Position numbers and translations under genes: made by a program. DNA of 32,156 bases from a virus, in the IMG/VR virus record IMGVR_UViG_3300031669_000149, positions 1 to 32,156 of that record. One strand, written 5' to 3'. The notes under the pieces are model-generated. The model saw only the letters and a program-made list of their open reading frames with translations, was not told the origin of the DNA and searched no databases. Below are positions 11,911-23,536 of this stretch, in pieces. Position 1 is the stretch's first letter. Each line of letters opens with the position of its first letter.

Positions 11911-12636
11911 ATGAGCCTAAACGCAAGACAAATTAACTTTGCAAATCAATATTGTGTGGATTTCAACGCCACGCAGGCCGCTATACGTGCGGGATACAGC
12001 GAAAAGACTGCATACCAGATCGGCCATGAGTTATTGAAGAACGTTGAGATTGCAGCTCGCATCGAGGAACGCAAGGAAGAACTCGCCGCCGCTGCCCTTG
12101 TGGACGGTGCCTGGGTGCTTCGCCAATGGATGCAGATAGCAACCGCCGACGCCAACGACTTGACGCAGCTAAGGCGCGTCTGCTGCCGACATTGCCATGG
12201 GTTTGGGCATCAGTACCAATGGACTGAGGCTGAATATTTGTCGGCGGTCAATAAGGCGATCGACAACGGCAAGGATGCCCCCGACGGCATGGGTGGCTTC
12301 GGGTTTGACCTGAACGCCGAGCCGGCCGATGGTTGCCCGGAGTGCGGTGGTCAAGGCGCTGAGCAGGTATACATCGCCGACACCCGCAAACTCAAGGGCT
12401 CGGCGCGTCGGCTGTTTGCGGGTGTCAAGAAAACCAAAGACGGTTTGCATATACTCATGCGCGATCAGGACGCGGCCCTAGACAAGCTCGCCCGTTATTT
12501 AGGCATGCTGGTAGACAAAAAGGAAATCAGCGGCCCCAATGGTGGCCCGGTGCCTTTGGCGCATATCACCGCTAACGACCTGACCGACGACCAGCTCGCC
12601 GCGCTTATCCGTGCGGACGAAGCGACCGAAGAATGA
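11911..12636 (+). CDS. terminase small subunit
   Basis: Residues 1-60 (LNARQINFANQYCVDFNATQAAIRAGYSEKTAYQIGHELLKN) are the classic Terminase_2 N-terminus, a helix-turn-helix that recognises the phage packaging site. The 241-residue protein carries an extra CCRHCHGFGHQY ... CPECGGQG cysteine set around residues 90-150, resembling a DnaJ-type zinc insertion and seen in longer phage variants. It recruits the large subunit to DNA for packaging. There is no ribosome site; a promoter ends 9 nt before the ATG. Its stop overlaps the start of the homing-endonuclease gene as ATGA. Confidence 0.9.
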   Translation: MSLNARQINFANQYCVDFNATQAAIRAGYSEKTAYQIGHELLKNVEIAARIEERKEELAAAALVDGAWVLRQWMQIATADANDLTQLRRVCCRHCHGFGHQYQWTEAEYLSAVNKAIDNGKDAPDGMGGFGFDLNAEPADGCPECGGQGAEQVYIADTRKLKGSARRLFAGVKKTKDGLHILMRDQDAALDKLARYLGMLVDKKEISGPNGGPVPLAHITANDLTDDQLAALIRADEATEE

Positions 12637-13259
12637 TCGATTTTTACGTATACGCGCACAGGACTGTCGGCAACAGGGTGTCGGGTGATGTGTTTTATAT
12701 CGGCAAAGGTCGCGGTAAGCGCGCTTGGTCTAAAAAGGGTCGAAATGTATATTGGCACCGTGTTGCTGAAAAATATGGATATGTTGTTGAGATACTTGCT
12801 GACGGACTGACTGAGGGCGAAGCGTTCGATTTAGAAAAATCATTTATTTCAGTTTGCGGTAGAGCGACGTTATGTAATTTAACCGACGGCGGTGAAGGTA
12901 GCTCGGGATACGTCGCTTCAGAAAGTGCCCGCGCAAAAATTAGTGCAGGCAACAAGGGGCGTATTCCAACAGAGTCGCACCGTAAAAAAATTAGCAACTC
13001 CAAAAAGGGTCACACAGTTTCAAAAGAAACTCGCGCTAAAATCGGGGTCACTTCAAGAGGCCGCAAACCGTCAGCGTCACATCTATTGAAAATAAGTAAA
13101 CCTGTCTCATGTTCAAATGGAATGTTGTTTCCGTCAGTATCTGGCGCGGCGAGGTGGCTGCGAGATAACGGTTTCCCGAAAGCGTCCAAGGGTAATATTG
13201 CTCAAAGGTGCCTCGGTAATTATCCGACGGCATACGGATTCGAATGGAAATACGTATGA
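12633..13259 (+). CDS. GIY-YIG homing endonuclease with NUMOD3 motifs
   Basis: A 208-residue free-standing homing endonuclease. The GIY-YIG core appears as FYVYAHR ... VFYIGKGRGKR (residues 4-30), followed by a helix containing GEAFDLEKSFI (catalytic Glu of the family) and NLTDGGEGSSG. Then come NUMOD3 repeats (AKISAGNKGRIPTESHRKKIS, SNSKKGHTVSKETRAKIG, RGRKPSASHLLKIS) and a NUMOD1/winged-type C-terminus (SVSGAARWLRDNGFPKAS) that bind DNA. It lies between the two terminase genes, overlapping both by ATGA, so it adds a gene without disturbing either. Lower GC and AAA-rich codon use than its neighbours support recent entry. Expected action: cutting endonuclease-free phages at the terminase locus to spread itself. 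Confidence 0.92.
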   Translation: MIDFYVYAHRTVGNRVSGDVFYIGKGRGKRAWSKKGRNVYWHRVAEKYGYVVEILADGLTEGEAFDLEKSFISVCGRATLCNLTDGGEGSSGYVASESARAKISAGNKGRIPTESHRKKISNSKKGHTVSKETRAKIGVTSRGRKPSASHLLKISKPVSCSNGMLFPSVSGAARWLRDNGFPKASKGNIAQRCLGNYPTAYGFEWKYV

Positions 13260-20267: not shown

Positions 20268-21395
20268 ATGAGTGGTTTTCAAAGACAGGTCAATTTGACC
20301 CCCGCCCCGGCAGCGGCTGGCGACTTCGCTTCGGCGAATCCTCGTGCATCCGTGCTTGCCGGCCCTAACGGCTTAGTCGCCGGCCCGCTGGGCGTCACCG
20401 TCGGTAAATTTGCGTGGGTTGATATCGACGACATTACCGTTAAGAGCTACGGCGTTGCGCCGCATGCTCCGAACGGCTTTGTACATCGCGAACAACAAGC
20501 GCTTATCACCGCATATCTGGCCGAGGCTGGCGTGTTGGTTCCCGAAGGTTTCCCCGTTACTCTGCATCAAGAGGGCGACTTTTGGGCACTGCTGACAGGC
20601 GCTGATGCTGCAGTTCGCGGTTCTGCTATTTATGCCAATTACGGAACCGGTGACGTGACTGCTGTTAACGCGGCAACCGGCGGTGTAGTTACTGGTGCAA
20701 TGGGTTCCACCAACACTGCGGCACTCGGCGCAACCTTCACCGCAAGCGGTTCAGGCACAAACCTGACCGTATCGGCAGTGACCGGCGTTATCAGCATTGG
20801 CGATACGATTAGCGGCACCGGCATACCAGCAGGTACAACGATTGTGTCCCAAACTTCCGGTACAACTGGCGGCGCGGGCGTGTATGTCACAAGCGCAGCT
20901 ACCACAATCTCGGCAGCTACCGCGACGGCATTCGGTAGCACTGTTGTTGTGAGCGCCACCACTGGCCTGATCAGTATCGGTGACACAATCAGCGGCGGTG
21001 CGGGCTTCCCAGTCGGCGCAACTGTTGCGACCCAAGTTTCCGGTACACCCGGCGGCGCGGGCACGTATACGCTGAGCGCACCAGGCACGGCGTATACAGC
21101 GAGCGCAACCGGCGTGACGACTTTCGGCATCGTGATGAACGTTACCGCAGTAACTTCGGGCGCGCTTGCAGTTGGCAACCCCGTAAGCGGTTCGGGCATT
21201 CCCGCCGGCGCAGTGATTGCGTCGCAGGTCAGTGGCACCGTCGGCGGCATTGGCGTGTATACACTGACTGTGCCCGCCACTGCCTATGCGGCTTCGACCA
21301 CCATCACAGCAGTCGCTGGCGTATTGACTAAGTTCATTGCGCAATCGGCGGCCGCAGTTGGTGAACTTGTAAAAATCTCATCTTGGGGCTACTAA
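20268..21395 (+). CDS. head decoration / structural cement protein with three repeats
   Basis: AAGGAG lies just before ATG 20268. The first 130 residues (VGKFAWVDIDDITVKSYG, PNGFVHREQQALITAYLAEA, VTLHQEGDFWALL) match the phage structural cement (Gp24-like) group that coats the capsid surface. An insert of three diverged repeats of about 60 residues (from about 165, 225 and 289) has the pattern I-x-GD-x-ISG-x-GIP-x-GTTI-x-SQ-x-SGT-x-GG-x-GVYT, a beta-rich module found as a display domain in many virion proteins. The closing residues (GELVKISSWGY) return to the cement fold. The insert may bind host or matrix glycans (inference). Confidence 0.75.
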   Translation: MSGFQRQVNLTPAPAAAGDFASANPRASVLAGPNGLVAGPLGVTVGKFAWVDIDDITVKSYGVAPHAPNGFVHREQQALITAYLAEAGVLVPEGFPVTLHQEGDFWALLTGADAAVRGSAIYANYGTGDVTAVNAATGGVVTGAMGSTNTAALGATFTASGSGTNLTVSAVTGVISIGDTISGTGIPAGTTIVSQTSGTTGGAGVYVTSAATTISAATATAFGSTVVVSATTGLISIGDTISGGAGFPVGATVATQVSGTPGGAGTYTLSAPGTAYTASATGVTTFGIVMNVTAVTSGALAVGNPVSGSGIPAGAVIASQVSGTVGGIGVYTLTVPATAYAASTTITAVAGVLTKFIAQSAAAVGELVKISSWGY

Positions 21396-21396
21396 C

Positions 21397-22440
21397 ATGA
21401 ATCCAATTCTACAAGCATTAATGGAACGCGCCGGGGTTCATTTTATGGGCCAGCCGGGCGTGGACTTCCAGGCAGCAAACGCGAATCTGCGTTTGGCACA
21501 CGATGGTTTCGCGTGCGACGCGCAGCCTTCCTTGATCACCACAAGCAACGCCGGTATTCCGGCATTCTTGACAACCTACATCGACCCCAAGCTGATTGAA
21601 GTGCTTGTGTCGCCGATGAAAGCTGCCGAGGTTGTGGGTGGCGAGGTTAAAAAGGGTGACTGGGTTACCGAAACGGCAATGTTCCCACTGGTAGAATCGA
21701 CCGGTGAAACATCGTCATACGGCGACTACAGCGAAAACGGCATGGCCGGTGTTAACTCGAACTTCCCGCAGCGTCAAAGCTATCACTACCAGGTGATGAC
21801 GCAATGGGGCGAAAAGGAACTCGAGCGCGCAGGTCTAGCACGTATCGACTGGGCTAACCGTATGAATATTGCGTCTGTTCTGACTCTGAACAAGTTCCAG
21901 AATAAAACGTATTTCTTCGGCGTATCCGGTCTGCAAAACTACGGTCTGTTGAACGACCCTAACCTGTCAGCCGCGATCGTACCGAATACGAAAACGGCCG
22001 GCGGTACAAGCTGGGAATTTGCGACGGGCACCGAAGTATTGGCAGATGTTACAAAGTTATATGTGAAACTGCAAAACCAGGCGAACGGTGTAATTGATCG
22101 AAACACAGCGATGACGTTGGCGATGTCCCCGGTGTCGGATGGTAACGGCATGACAAAGGTTACCGATTTCAACGTGACTGTTGCGATGAAAGTCAAGGCC
22201 ATTTACCCGAACATGCGCATCGTAACGGCTCCCGAATATACGACCACATCTGGTGAATTGGTACAGTTGTTCGCTGATGAAATCGAAGGGCAGCGTACCG
22301 CCGATACAGCGTTCACGGAAAAACTGCGTGCGCATCCGATTGTCGTTCAATCCTCAAGCTTTAAACAGAAAAAAAGCCAAGGAACTTGGGGCTGTATCGT
22401 ATACAGGCCGGCATTCATAAGCCAAATGATCGGAACATGA
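21397..22440 (+). CDS. major capsid protein (DUF2184 family)
   Basis: A 347-residue protein one base after the decoration gene stop. Its features fit the DUF2184 major capsid group (HK97 fold): TYIDPKLIEVLVSPMKAAEV (about 60-80), FPLVESTGETSSYGDYSENG, QVMTQWGEKELERAG, FFGVSGLQNYGLLNDP and C-terminal SSFKQKKSQGTWGCIVYRPAFI. Gene position after protease and decoration protein and before a strong terminator supports the call. It forms the icosahedral shell after proteolytic maturation. Confidence 0.87.
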   Translation: MNPILQALMERAGVHFMGQPGVDFQAANANLRLAHDGFACDAQPSLITTSNAGIPAFLTTYIDPKLIEVLVSPMKAAEVVGGEVKKGDWVTETAMFPLVESTGETSSYGDYSENGMAGVNSNFPQRQSYHYQVMTQWGEKELERAGLARIDWANRMNIASVLTLNKFQNKTYFFGVSGLQNYGLLNDPNLSAAIVPNTKTAGGTSWEFATGTEVLADVTKLYVKLQNQANGVIDRNTAMTLAMSPVSDGNGMTKVTDFNVTVAMKVKAIYPNMRIVTAPEYTTTSGELVQLFADEIEGQRTADTAFTEKLRAHPIVVQSSSFKQKKSQGTWGCIVYRPAFISQMIGT

Positions 22441-22470
22441 CCCTGCGTTAACATATTAACTGTTTGATGT

Positions 22471-22510
22471 ATAATAAACCCCATTGCAACTTGATGGGGT
22501 TTATTATTTT
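22471..22510. terminator. strong intrinsic terminator after the capsid gene
   Basis: A perfect 14-bp stem, ATAATAAACCCCAT (22471-22484) with ATGGGGTTTATTAT (22494-22507), encloses a 9-nt loop and is followed by a short T run (22508-22510). It ends transcription of the head genes, so the downstream connector and tail genes depend on read-through or another promoter. Confidence 0.9.
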
Positions 22511-22524
22511 ATGGCTACTAAACG

Positions 22525-22584
22525 GCATAACAAAGAGTTAATGGGCGACGCTTCGCGGCGTCCCTCTTGAACGGCGGGTTAGAC
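22525..22584. other. integron attC site 1 (from a lost upstream cassette)
   Basis: R'' box GCATAAC (22525-22531, one mismatch to RYYYAAC) and R' box GTTAGAC (22578-22584, exact GTTRRRY) bracket an imperfect hairpin: GTTAA-GGG pairs with CCC-TTGAAC around a GACGC/GCGTC stem. The 60-nt length and the central cttcgcggcg resemble attC sites such as that of aadA cassettes. No cassette gene precedes it. Confidence 0.8.
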
Positions 22585-23014
22585 ACAACGTTAAAAGATA
22601 GGTGAACCATGAAATTAACTGAATTAAATCCACGATGGATAACATTGCAAAATTGGGTATCACCAGAACCATTCTACATTGGTTTATCTTTCCTGTGCCC
22701 GCATTGTCCATCTGATTTAGATGAGCACGGCAAAACTCGGCGTAGAAGATTAGCTATTTCGTTTTGGCCTCCGATTGACACAACAAATATGCTCGGGAGA
22801 GTGTTTGATTTGCCAGTAAATCAGATGGCGCATAGACGAGAATCTGGAGATACATTCGATACCCTGACTATTGAGCCAAGCATTGGTTTTGAAAGCATTG
22901 GACATTGGCACGGACGAATCACTAACGGGCAATGTGTCTAACGTGTATTTGAGCGGGCGCGTATAAATTTTTGATTGAAAAACCACGCTTCGAGCGCTCC
23001 GCTCGAACGGAAAG
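22579..23014 (+). mobile_element. complete integron gene cassette (436 bp)
   Basis: The cassette runs from the T after G22578 in attC1 to G23014 in attC2. Its own R'' box (GTCTAAC, 22936-22942) is the exact reverse complement of its first R' (GTTAGAC, 22578-22584), as required when the cassette closes into a circle. It holds one promoterless gene in the normal orientation, and the stop codon lies within the R'' box. Confidence 0.8.
22609..22941 (+). CDS. cassette gene, DUF6527-like small protein
   Basis: A 110-residue protein with AGGTG a few bases before ATG 22609. It has a CPHC pair near residue 30 (LSFLCPHCPSD), then ESGDTFDTLTIEPSIGFES and GHWHGRITNGQCV. The GDTF-x-TLT-x-x-PSI ... HWHG-x-ITNG pattern is that of DUF6527-like proteins found in integron cassettes and phages. 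Possibly a small metal-binding protein; function unknown. Codon use is more AT-rich than the flanking virion genes, consistent with foreign origin. Expression would depend on read-through of the upstream terminator or an unseen promoter. Confidence 0.78.
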   Translation: MKLTELNPRWITLQNWVSPEPFYIGLSFLCPHCPSDLDEHGKTRRRRLAISFWPPIDTTNMLGRVFDLPVNQMAHRRESGDTFDTLTIEPSIGFESIGHWHGRITNGQCV

Positions 23015-23020
23015 TTAGGG
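22936..23020. other. integron attC site 2 (belongs to the complete cassette)
   Basis: R'' GTCTAAC (22936-22942) and R' GTTAGGG (23014-23020; the last base departs from GTTRRRY) flank L'' TTTGAGCGG and L' CCGCTCGAA, which pair with one mismatched or extrahelical base. The centre is an irregular loop. The length is about 85 nt, within the attC range. Confidence 0.78.
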
Positions 23021-23028
23021 GCGAAACT

Positions 23029-23139
23029 ATGAAATGGCAACCAATTGAGACAGCACCAGAAGCAACCAATGTACTTGTGTGGCGGGAAAACTTAAAACTG
23101 CATATGGCTTTACATGGTCGCACGCTTAGAATAGTATGA
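23029..23139 (+). CDS. truncated second cassette gene (DUF551-like start)
   Basis: ATG 23029 opens a 36-residue ORF, MKWQPIETAPEATNVLVW..., matching the start of the W-x-PIETAP-x-x-x-x-VLVW family common in phages and cassettes (DUF551-like, normally 70-130 residues). It stops early at 23139, and no complementary R'' (CCCTAAC) follows. The second cassette therefore looks cut or decayed. A small hairpin GAGCG/CGCTC and GTTAATC at about 23154-23160 may be an attC remnant. Confidence 0.5.
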   Translation: MKWQPIETAPEATNVLVWRENLKLHMALHGRTLRIV

Positions 23140-23185
23140 GCGCTCAAACGCTCGTTAATCAACTATAACTTAGGGAATTGCAAAA

Positions 23186-23536
23186 ATGGCCACTAAATCC
23201 GTAAACGTATGCTGCAAGCTGCCGCACGGTATCATCATCCAGCACCCGCTCGACGCTAAAAATACCGTCACTCTGTTGGGTAAAAATAAAGCCACGATCA
23301 TCGGAGCTGACTACGCAATCACCAAGGTTGACGGCGACTTCTGGGCCGACTGGTCTGCCGTAAATAAAGAATTCGCCCCCGTCGTATCTGGCGCAATCTT
23401 TGTTGCTAAAAATCAAGCCGATGTGACTGCCAAGGCCGCTGAGTTCAAAGAGCGCAAAACCGGCTTTGAACCCATGCGCACCGATGGCAAAGACGAGCGC
23501 GCATCTGGCATAAAGTCTGCTGACAACAAAGAATGA
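23186..23536 (+). CDS. conserved phage head-tail region protein
   Basis: A 116-residue soluble protein: VNVCCKLPHGIIIQ, ATIIGADYAITKVDGDFWADW and a C-terminal helix with ERKTGFEPM. This pattern (a short beta protein ending in KTGFE) is recurrent next to DUF4054 connectors in phages; the exact role is unknown to me. Its first 12 bases (ATGGCCACTAAA) nearly repeat ATGGCTACTAAA at 22511, on the other side of the cassette insertion. Its stop overlaps the next start as ATGA. Confidence 0.7.
   Translation: MATKSVNVCCKLPHGIIIQHPLDAKNTVTLLGKNKATIIGADYAITKVDGDFWADWSAVNKEFAPVVSGAIFVAKNQADVTAKAAEFKERKTGFEPMRTDGKDERASGIKSADNKE

Follow-up and report, generated by a model that had tools for sequence, protein, structure and literature searches.

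Between the major capsid gene of a phage and the next gene of its virion cluster stands a small group of integron-type attC sites with genes running against their polarity, and the question addressed here is what this group of sites is, how it reached a phage genome and why gene and attC point in opposite directions. The window that was analysed, 32,156 bases at its full length, is a linear viral record of IMG/VR.

Insertion site in the phage genome

The gene order of the window is that of a contractile-tailed phage, with exonuclease, methyltransferase, helicase and primase genes in the left part, followed by terminase, portal, head morphogenesis, protease, minor head protein and capsid genes and, to the right of the insert, by head-tail, sheath and baseplate genes. 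Virion or packaging genes are present on both sides of the insert, as in a phage genome. A homing-endonuclease-like gene (phrog_314, 12633-13259) separates the small terminase gene from the large one, and the minor head protein (20268-21395) carries a low-complexity repeat domain of SGTxxGGAGVYT-like units after its conserved N-terminal part. The features around the borders of the insert are as follows.

21397-22440, plus strand: major capsid gene, left flank (phrog_264, E 7e-72)
22448-22475, plus strand: sigma-70-like candidate promoter, TTAACA-16-TATAAT (11/12 consensus match)
22471-22507, plus strand: terminator hairpin (14-bp perfect inverted repeat, DNA fold z -5.1, hairpin at the same place in relatives)
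22511-22522, plus strand: left copy, ATGGCTACTAAA, of an imperfect direct repeat at the insert border (11/12 with 23186-23197)
23186-23536, plus strand: g2, the next phage gene, right flank (phrog_2085, syntenic in relatives)

For comparison, 38 relatives with a capsid identity of at least 65% (range 66-83%) and an intact capsid-g2 gap were used. This gap measures 746 bp in the window; in 37 relatives it spans 48-126 bp and in the remaining one (L014) 234 bp, and its contents there are a hairpin terminator and a ribosome-binding region. Both elements are kept in the window, the hairpin downstream of the capsid gene and ATAACTTAGGG, to which g2 owes its ribosome-binding region, at about 23165-23175; the latter is native phage sequence that is also present in L042. 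Because the gap is far shorter in the 38 close relatives, the array is an insertion (approximately 620-655 bases, with a GC content of 45% versus 53% for the record) that is absent from them. A preliminary description of this DNA had read from the sequence an insertion of foreign DNA among the virion genes and had proposed a comparison with empty sites in related phages, and this comparison bears it out. A chimera of a cassette array and a phage, created during metagenome assembly, would be conceivable for a metagenomic record that comes without read data, but is hardly credible here, since phage synteny resumes on both sides at the expected gap and the native terminator and ribosome-binding region are kept.

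The preliminary description set its limits at 22511 and 23197, where the 11/12 direct repeat bordering the insert, ATGGCYACTAAA, has its outer ends; an equally good repeat was obtained in 7 of 1000 shuffles, and this repeat is possibly a trace of the insertion event. Its right copy forms the start of g2. The gene within the insert had been described as promoterless, which was not confirmed, as the candidate promoter just upstream could drive both this gene and g2. The -10 element of the candidate overlaps the 5' arm of the terminator (22448-22507), and most of the hairpin would therefore be missing from its transcripts, while those of the capsid gene would include it. In six more distant relatives (L053, L054, L055, L076, L080 and L082) the capsid-g2 gap holds other cargo of 0.55-1.3 kb, made up of small ORFs and, in L053, a long repeat-rich ORF, and the gap is therefore a recurrent insertion place.

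Identification and polarity of the attC sites

The attC sites were assessed with a scanner that had been calibrated against attCs of class 1 integrons and of TJE1, and with a home-made covariance model (CM) of 28 aligned known attCs, taken from class 1 integrons on plasmids, from chromosomal integrons located via their integrase gene and from phage TJE1, with no window sequence included.

22525-22584, minus strand: attC1, the attC of cassette X (CM 39.3 bits, E 2.4e-7 on minus; 17.7 bits on plus)
22936-23020, minus strand: attC2, the attC of the broken cassette Y (CM 30.2 bits, E 3.2e-5 on minus; plus not listed)

Both sites, located by the preliminary description at exactly these positions and suggested there for such a test, were accepted by the model built from independent attCs. 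The best unrelated place in the window scored 11.7 bits, and in 736 kb of control sequence from 71 loci, most of it from relatives of the phage, no attC was found and the CM maximum was 12.7 bits. The boxes of attC1 are R'' GTCTAAC (22584-22578), L'' GTTCAAGAGGG, L' CCCATTAAC and R' GTTATGC (22531-22525), and those of attC2 are R'' CCCTAAC, L'' GTTCGAGCG, L' CGCTCAAA and R' GTTAGAC. R'' follows the form RYYYAAC and R' the form GTTRRRY, L'' pairs with L', the 5-nt spacers are unpaired and an extrahelical base is present. An Rfam scan of the window gave no match. A degenerate half attC was considered as a third site at 23138-23157 (minus strand, GATTAACGAGCGTTTGAGCGCTCA on minus), which forms an inverted repeat with attC2; the CM finds nothing there, and this low-confidence candidate was set aside.

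The attCs had initially been assigned to the plus strand, because the ORF between them lies on plus, with its start 31 nt past one R box and its end within the following one. However, R'' and R' mirror each other, so that the geometry of ORF and boxes is blind to polarity and the extrahelical base decides. The CM places both sites on minus, and its polarity calls are reliable, given that all 116 listed attC matches in bacterial integron regions fell on the array strand. Examined by eye, the minus strand of attC1 has the usual left arm, GTCTAAC-CCGCC-GTTCAAGAGGGAC, and a right arm ATTAAC-TCTTT-GTTATGC. Both attCs are therefore real sites of minus-strand polarity. As a consequence, attC1 is not the leftover of an earlier, lost cassette, as first described, but belongs to cassette X, whose gene has its own attC ahead of its start codon; the second cassette is indeed broken, as had been stated, but it owns attC2 instead of following it. 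In DNA folding, the plus strand of attC2 forms a full attC stem whereas the minus strand does not, and the recombinogenic (bottom) strand is predicted to be the plus strand of the window. The DNA fold z-scores of both attCs were not significant and were left out of the proof.

With two attCs 351 bp apart and no intI in the record, the locus has the composition of a CALIN; TIGR02249 had no match in this 32-kb sequence, possibly itself a fragment. Over 54 bp, attC1 shares 94% identity with attCs of the viral contigs L172 and L153/L166; a 16-mer of attC1 had been used to fetch these contigs, and the likeness is therefore partly built in. In the phage contig L172 the genes lie on plus and the attCs on minus, and the array appears to follow a NinG-like gene. 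Compared with INPHARED phages, attC1 gave no match.

Cassettes and their genes

22531-22941, minus strand (attC polarity): cassette X, the sole complete cassette, from TTAGAC to the G of the attC1 R'
22609-22941, plus strand: gene X, 110 aa, antisense to the attC polarity, weakly DUF6527-like
23029-23139, plus strand: ORF fragment MKWQPIETAP..., 36 codons, in the broken cassette Y, antisense to the attC, starting 15 nt after an R box

Cassette X combines one gene and one attC, and its ends GTTAGAC (22578-22584) and GTCTAAC (22936-22942) are exact complements, so that it has cassette ends under minus polarity also. Each of these two boxes is rare, at about 1%. The complementarity had been called decisive; it is exact, but amounts to moderate evidence, since 76% of viral cassettes match in this way against 27% of random pairings. 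The description of a gene cassette formed by a 110-aa ORF flanked by both attCs is supported. The gene does not share the orientation of its attC, as expression from Pc would demand: it lies on plus, the attCs on minus. Its stop codon falls inside a box of attC2. The match of gene X to PF20137 (E 0.004) was below the cut-off, and AlphaFold returned no usable fold for the 110-aa protein (pLDDT 40). Homologues with 44-60% identity were found at nine viral loci and on one Hyphomicrobiales MAG contig, with no attC beside those that were checked, and the protein had no match in plasmids or cultured phages. All relatives found for it are phage-type genes. At one viral locus (L095:2085-2540) the homologue is enclosed by the two arms of an inverted repeat, perfect over about 30 bp, and adjoins a tyrosine-integrase-like gene, making this a second mobile-looking module with the gene X family.

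For the ORF fragment of cassette Y no family match was obtained; it may resemble DUF551-type phage proteins. Both outer cassettes of the array are cut mid-cassette.

Orientation of genes relative to attC sites in viral and bacterial arrays

Viral contigs were fetched from IMG/VR using three attC left-arm patterns and were then confirmed with the CM; two of the patterns were derived from the window attCs and the third, generic one was independent of the window. Integrase-anchored regions served as the main bacterial control, because a scan of 398 bacterial genomes with the same patterns gave 9 sites in 4 genomes, which is too few. Orientation was counted for confident cassettes, defined by a home-made rule as those in which the longest ORF is clearly dominant. 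In the bacterial integron regions 66 cassettes had gene and attC in the same direction and one was antisense (81 and 4 in an earlier, looser count), whereas in the viral arrays 22 were same and 71 antisense (Fisher P 2e-24), with 116 of 209 viral cassettes not classifiable, their high GC breeding spurious ORFs, and with some contigs that may be prophages or hold host DNA. The difference persisted with one vote per locus (same:antisense 19:0 for bacterial and 10:38 for viral loci, P 8e-10) and in GC-matched bins of 0.55-0.65 (24:0 and 20:59). The sampled viral arrays are thus usually reversed, and bacterial integrons almost never.

An absence of selection on polarity in viral arrays, giving roughly 50:50, could produce the same picture if the antisense excess were an effect of ascertainment or ORF calling and the window simply one of the antisense half. 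The origin of two fetch patterns in the window, the 116 unclear cassettes and the standard polarity of TJE1 would fit this. However, loci found by the generic pattern only gave, among the matches listed, 48 antisense and 18 same (P 3e-4), the viral locus votes by themselves depart from equality (P 6e-5), and even a 50:50 ratio would differ sharply from bacteria. We regard this explanation as unlikely, and a genuine excess of reversed cassettes as the preferred reading.

The antisense viral ORFs include four methyltransferases and one DUF7736 protein, which argues from sequence likeness that they are real genes. The genes of one array (L270) resemble annotated phage genes and lie on the strand opposite to its attCs. 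Flanking the ten loci with antisense cassettes that were sampled, terminases, portal, tail proteins and a phage transposase were found, and in L256 the array abuts a portal gene, so that a position in the virion cluster is not unique to the window. In MW202573, a public and independently annotated phage, four attCs (43.4, 43.2, 37.0 and 24.5 bits) lie on minus amid annotated plus-strand genes. The array of the cultured phage TJE1 has standard polarity, and phage arrays are therefore mixed. P12002L gave no attC with this CM.

The preliminary description held that cassettes in virion operons are rarely described, which is true of cultured phages, with 17 CALINs in 10,705 phage genomes (PMC9892861), but does not extend to IMG/VR, whose viral contigs readily yield attC arrays, at least 120 stretches with the generic pattern. 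The 17 CALINs are therefore probably a large underestimate for uncultured phages.

Signs of cassette mobility

R' and R'' matched exactly in 159 of 209 viral cassettes (76%, compared with 27% of random pairings) and in 63 of 73 antisense ones. Single cassettes were common to otherwise unrelated contigs: L231 and L265 share 259 bp at 96%, L183 and L276 250 bp at 94%, and L220 and L249 417 bp at 93%. On this sequence evidence, the matching ends and shared single cassettes are best taken as signs of site-specific recombination. It might instead be supposed that attC-like hairpins serve phages as RNA or DNA hairpins, such as terminators or mRNA stabilisers, and that the reversal reflects the preferred RNA fold; weak terminator activity has been ascribed to attC hairpins (PMC9892861), and attC2 adopts the complete stem when its plus strand is folded. 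This is very improbable in view of the cassette-specific matching of ends, the sharing of single cassettes between contigs and the obedience of the unpaired spacer and extrahelical base to attC rules.

Under the reading as recombination sites, the enzyme is seldom encoded alongside. An integron integrase was over the cut-off in 1 of 38 viral array records, and a tyrosine recombinase of the PF00589 family was present in 4 of 30. With the integrase nearly absent from the records, movement would need a recombinase in trans, and a trans-acting recombinase for the viral cassettes is our assumption. Five of six phage attCs recombined with attI1 under IntI1 (Qi et al. 2023, PMC9892861), and phage attCs can therefore work. 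The antisense viral proteins had no relatives in the approximately 40 bacterial integron regions examined.

Origin of the array

The array fragment consists of the whole cassette X, with a phage-type accessory gene, and the cut-off parts of its neighbours. A bacterial integron integrase might have inserted ordinary cassettes directly at a secondary (attG-like) site of the phage genome, in which case their reversed genes would be an oddity. Integration at attG is known (named in PMC12901181), the attCs are real with an exact R'/R'' pair, and GTTAATC at the right border comes close to an R' box and may derive from the target. Against this, 1 of 67 sampled bacterial integron cassettes is antisense while both genes of the window are, both ends of the array break off mid-cassette, other viral contigs contain the closest attCs found and the relatives of gene X are phage-type genes. 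The preliminary interpretation as a whole is partly supported. As for the route, a fragment from another phage fits better than the direct capture by an integrase at a secondary site that was originally proposed, and we judge the bacterial route distinctly unlikely. The insert is probably a decayed part of a phage-borne, reverse-polarity cassette array (a CALIN), a reading that includes an inferred phage pool and an integrase in trans. Transfer of a fragment from phage to phage is favoured over direct bacterial capture because of the truncated outer cassettes, the 94% identity of attC1 to viral attCs and the phage-type relatives of gene X. The wider proposal, that phages keep a cassette pool of their own with reversed, phage-derived genes exchanged via an integrase in trans, and that they are a birthplace of new cassettes, is advanced tentatively and falls a little short of an even chance.

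For the movement of the cassettes and the cause of their reversal we infer the following course. The pool would have formed from phage genes, and an integron integrase provided in trans by a host, plasmid or prophage would move the cassettes, acting on the folded strand, here presumably the coding strand of gene X. Integron genes follow the attC polarity for expression from Pc (PMC11023631, PMC8946536); in a phage array without Pc the standard polarity would not be selected, and cassette genes would only need the direction of the phage operon, with phage promoters transcribing them. The lack of Pc would explain the loss of the polarity rule, but not a bias beyond 50:50. In Vibrio cholerae, the location of attC bottom strands on the lagging-strand template strongly raises excision (PMC11023631). 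Under reversed polarity the recombinogenic strand would be the coding strand and, when genes run with the replication fork, the lagging-strand template as well; being more often single-stranded, it would fold into an attC more readily, which may give the excess of reversal. Another phage was probably the source of the copy in the window, which would have arrived as a piece of an array and lost its ends afterwards. The standard polarity of TJE1 and the 22 viral cassettes in the same direction speak against universal reversal, and the window array has only one whole cassette.

Comparison with known systems and implications

Phage CALINs are already known (Qi et al. 2023, PMC9892861: TJE1, PH101, P12002L, MW202573 and others) and likewise have attCs without an integrase. 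They share small phage-type genes and methyltransferases with the present arrays, and the TJE1 array is also located downstream of a predicted terminator. That study gives attC directions, but not genes running against the attC polarity; MW202573 from its set is reversed and TJE1 is not. We found no report of reversed gene-to-attC polarity in phages in the open-access literature. The window array differs from these CALINs in its position between capsid and head-tail genes and in the demonstration of the empty site. With the cassettes of sedentary chromosomal integrons it has in common the order R'', L'', extrahelical base, L', R', one gene per attC and matching R'/R''. However, its gene is antisense, where the integrons are 66:1 sense, the record has neither integrase nor attI, and the viral cassettes form a separate gene pool in our sample. 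Phage morons are likewise additional genes set among conserved virion genes and adjoined by a terminator, whereas the gene in the window is bounded by attCs, so that such genes would in principle be mobile one by one.

Annotation which assumes that gene and attC are co-directional will misassign phage cassettes. These cassettes would lie outside selection by the integron promoter, and a phage pool would bear on the question of where integron cassettes originate. Reversed, end-matched, mostly integrase-less and shared between contigs, they would point to phages as makers as well as carriers of cassettes.
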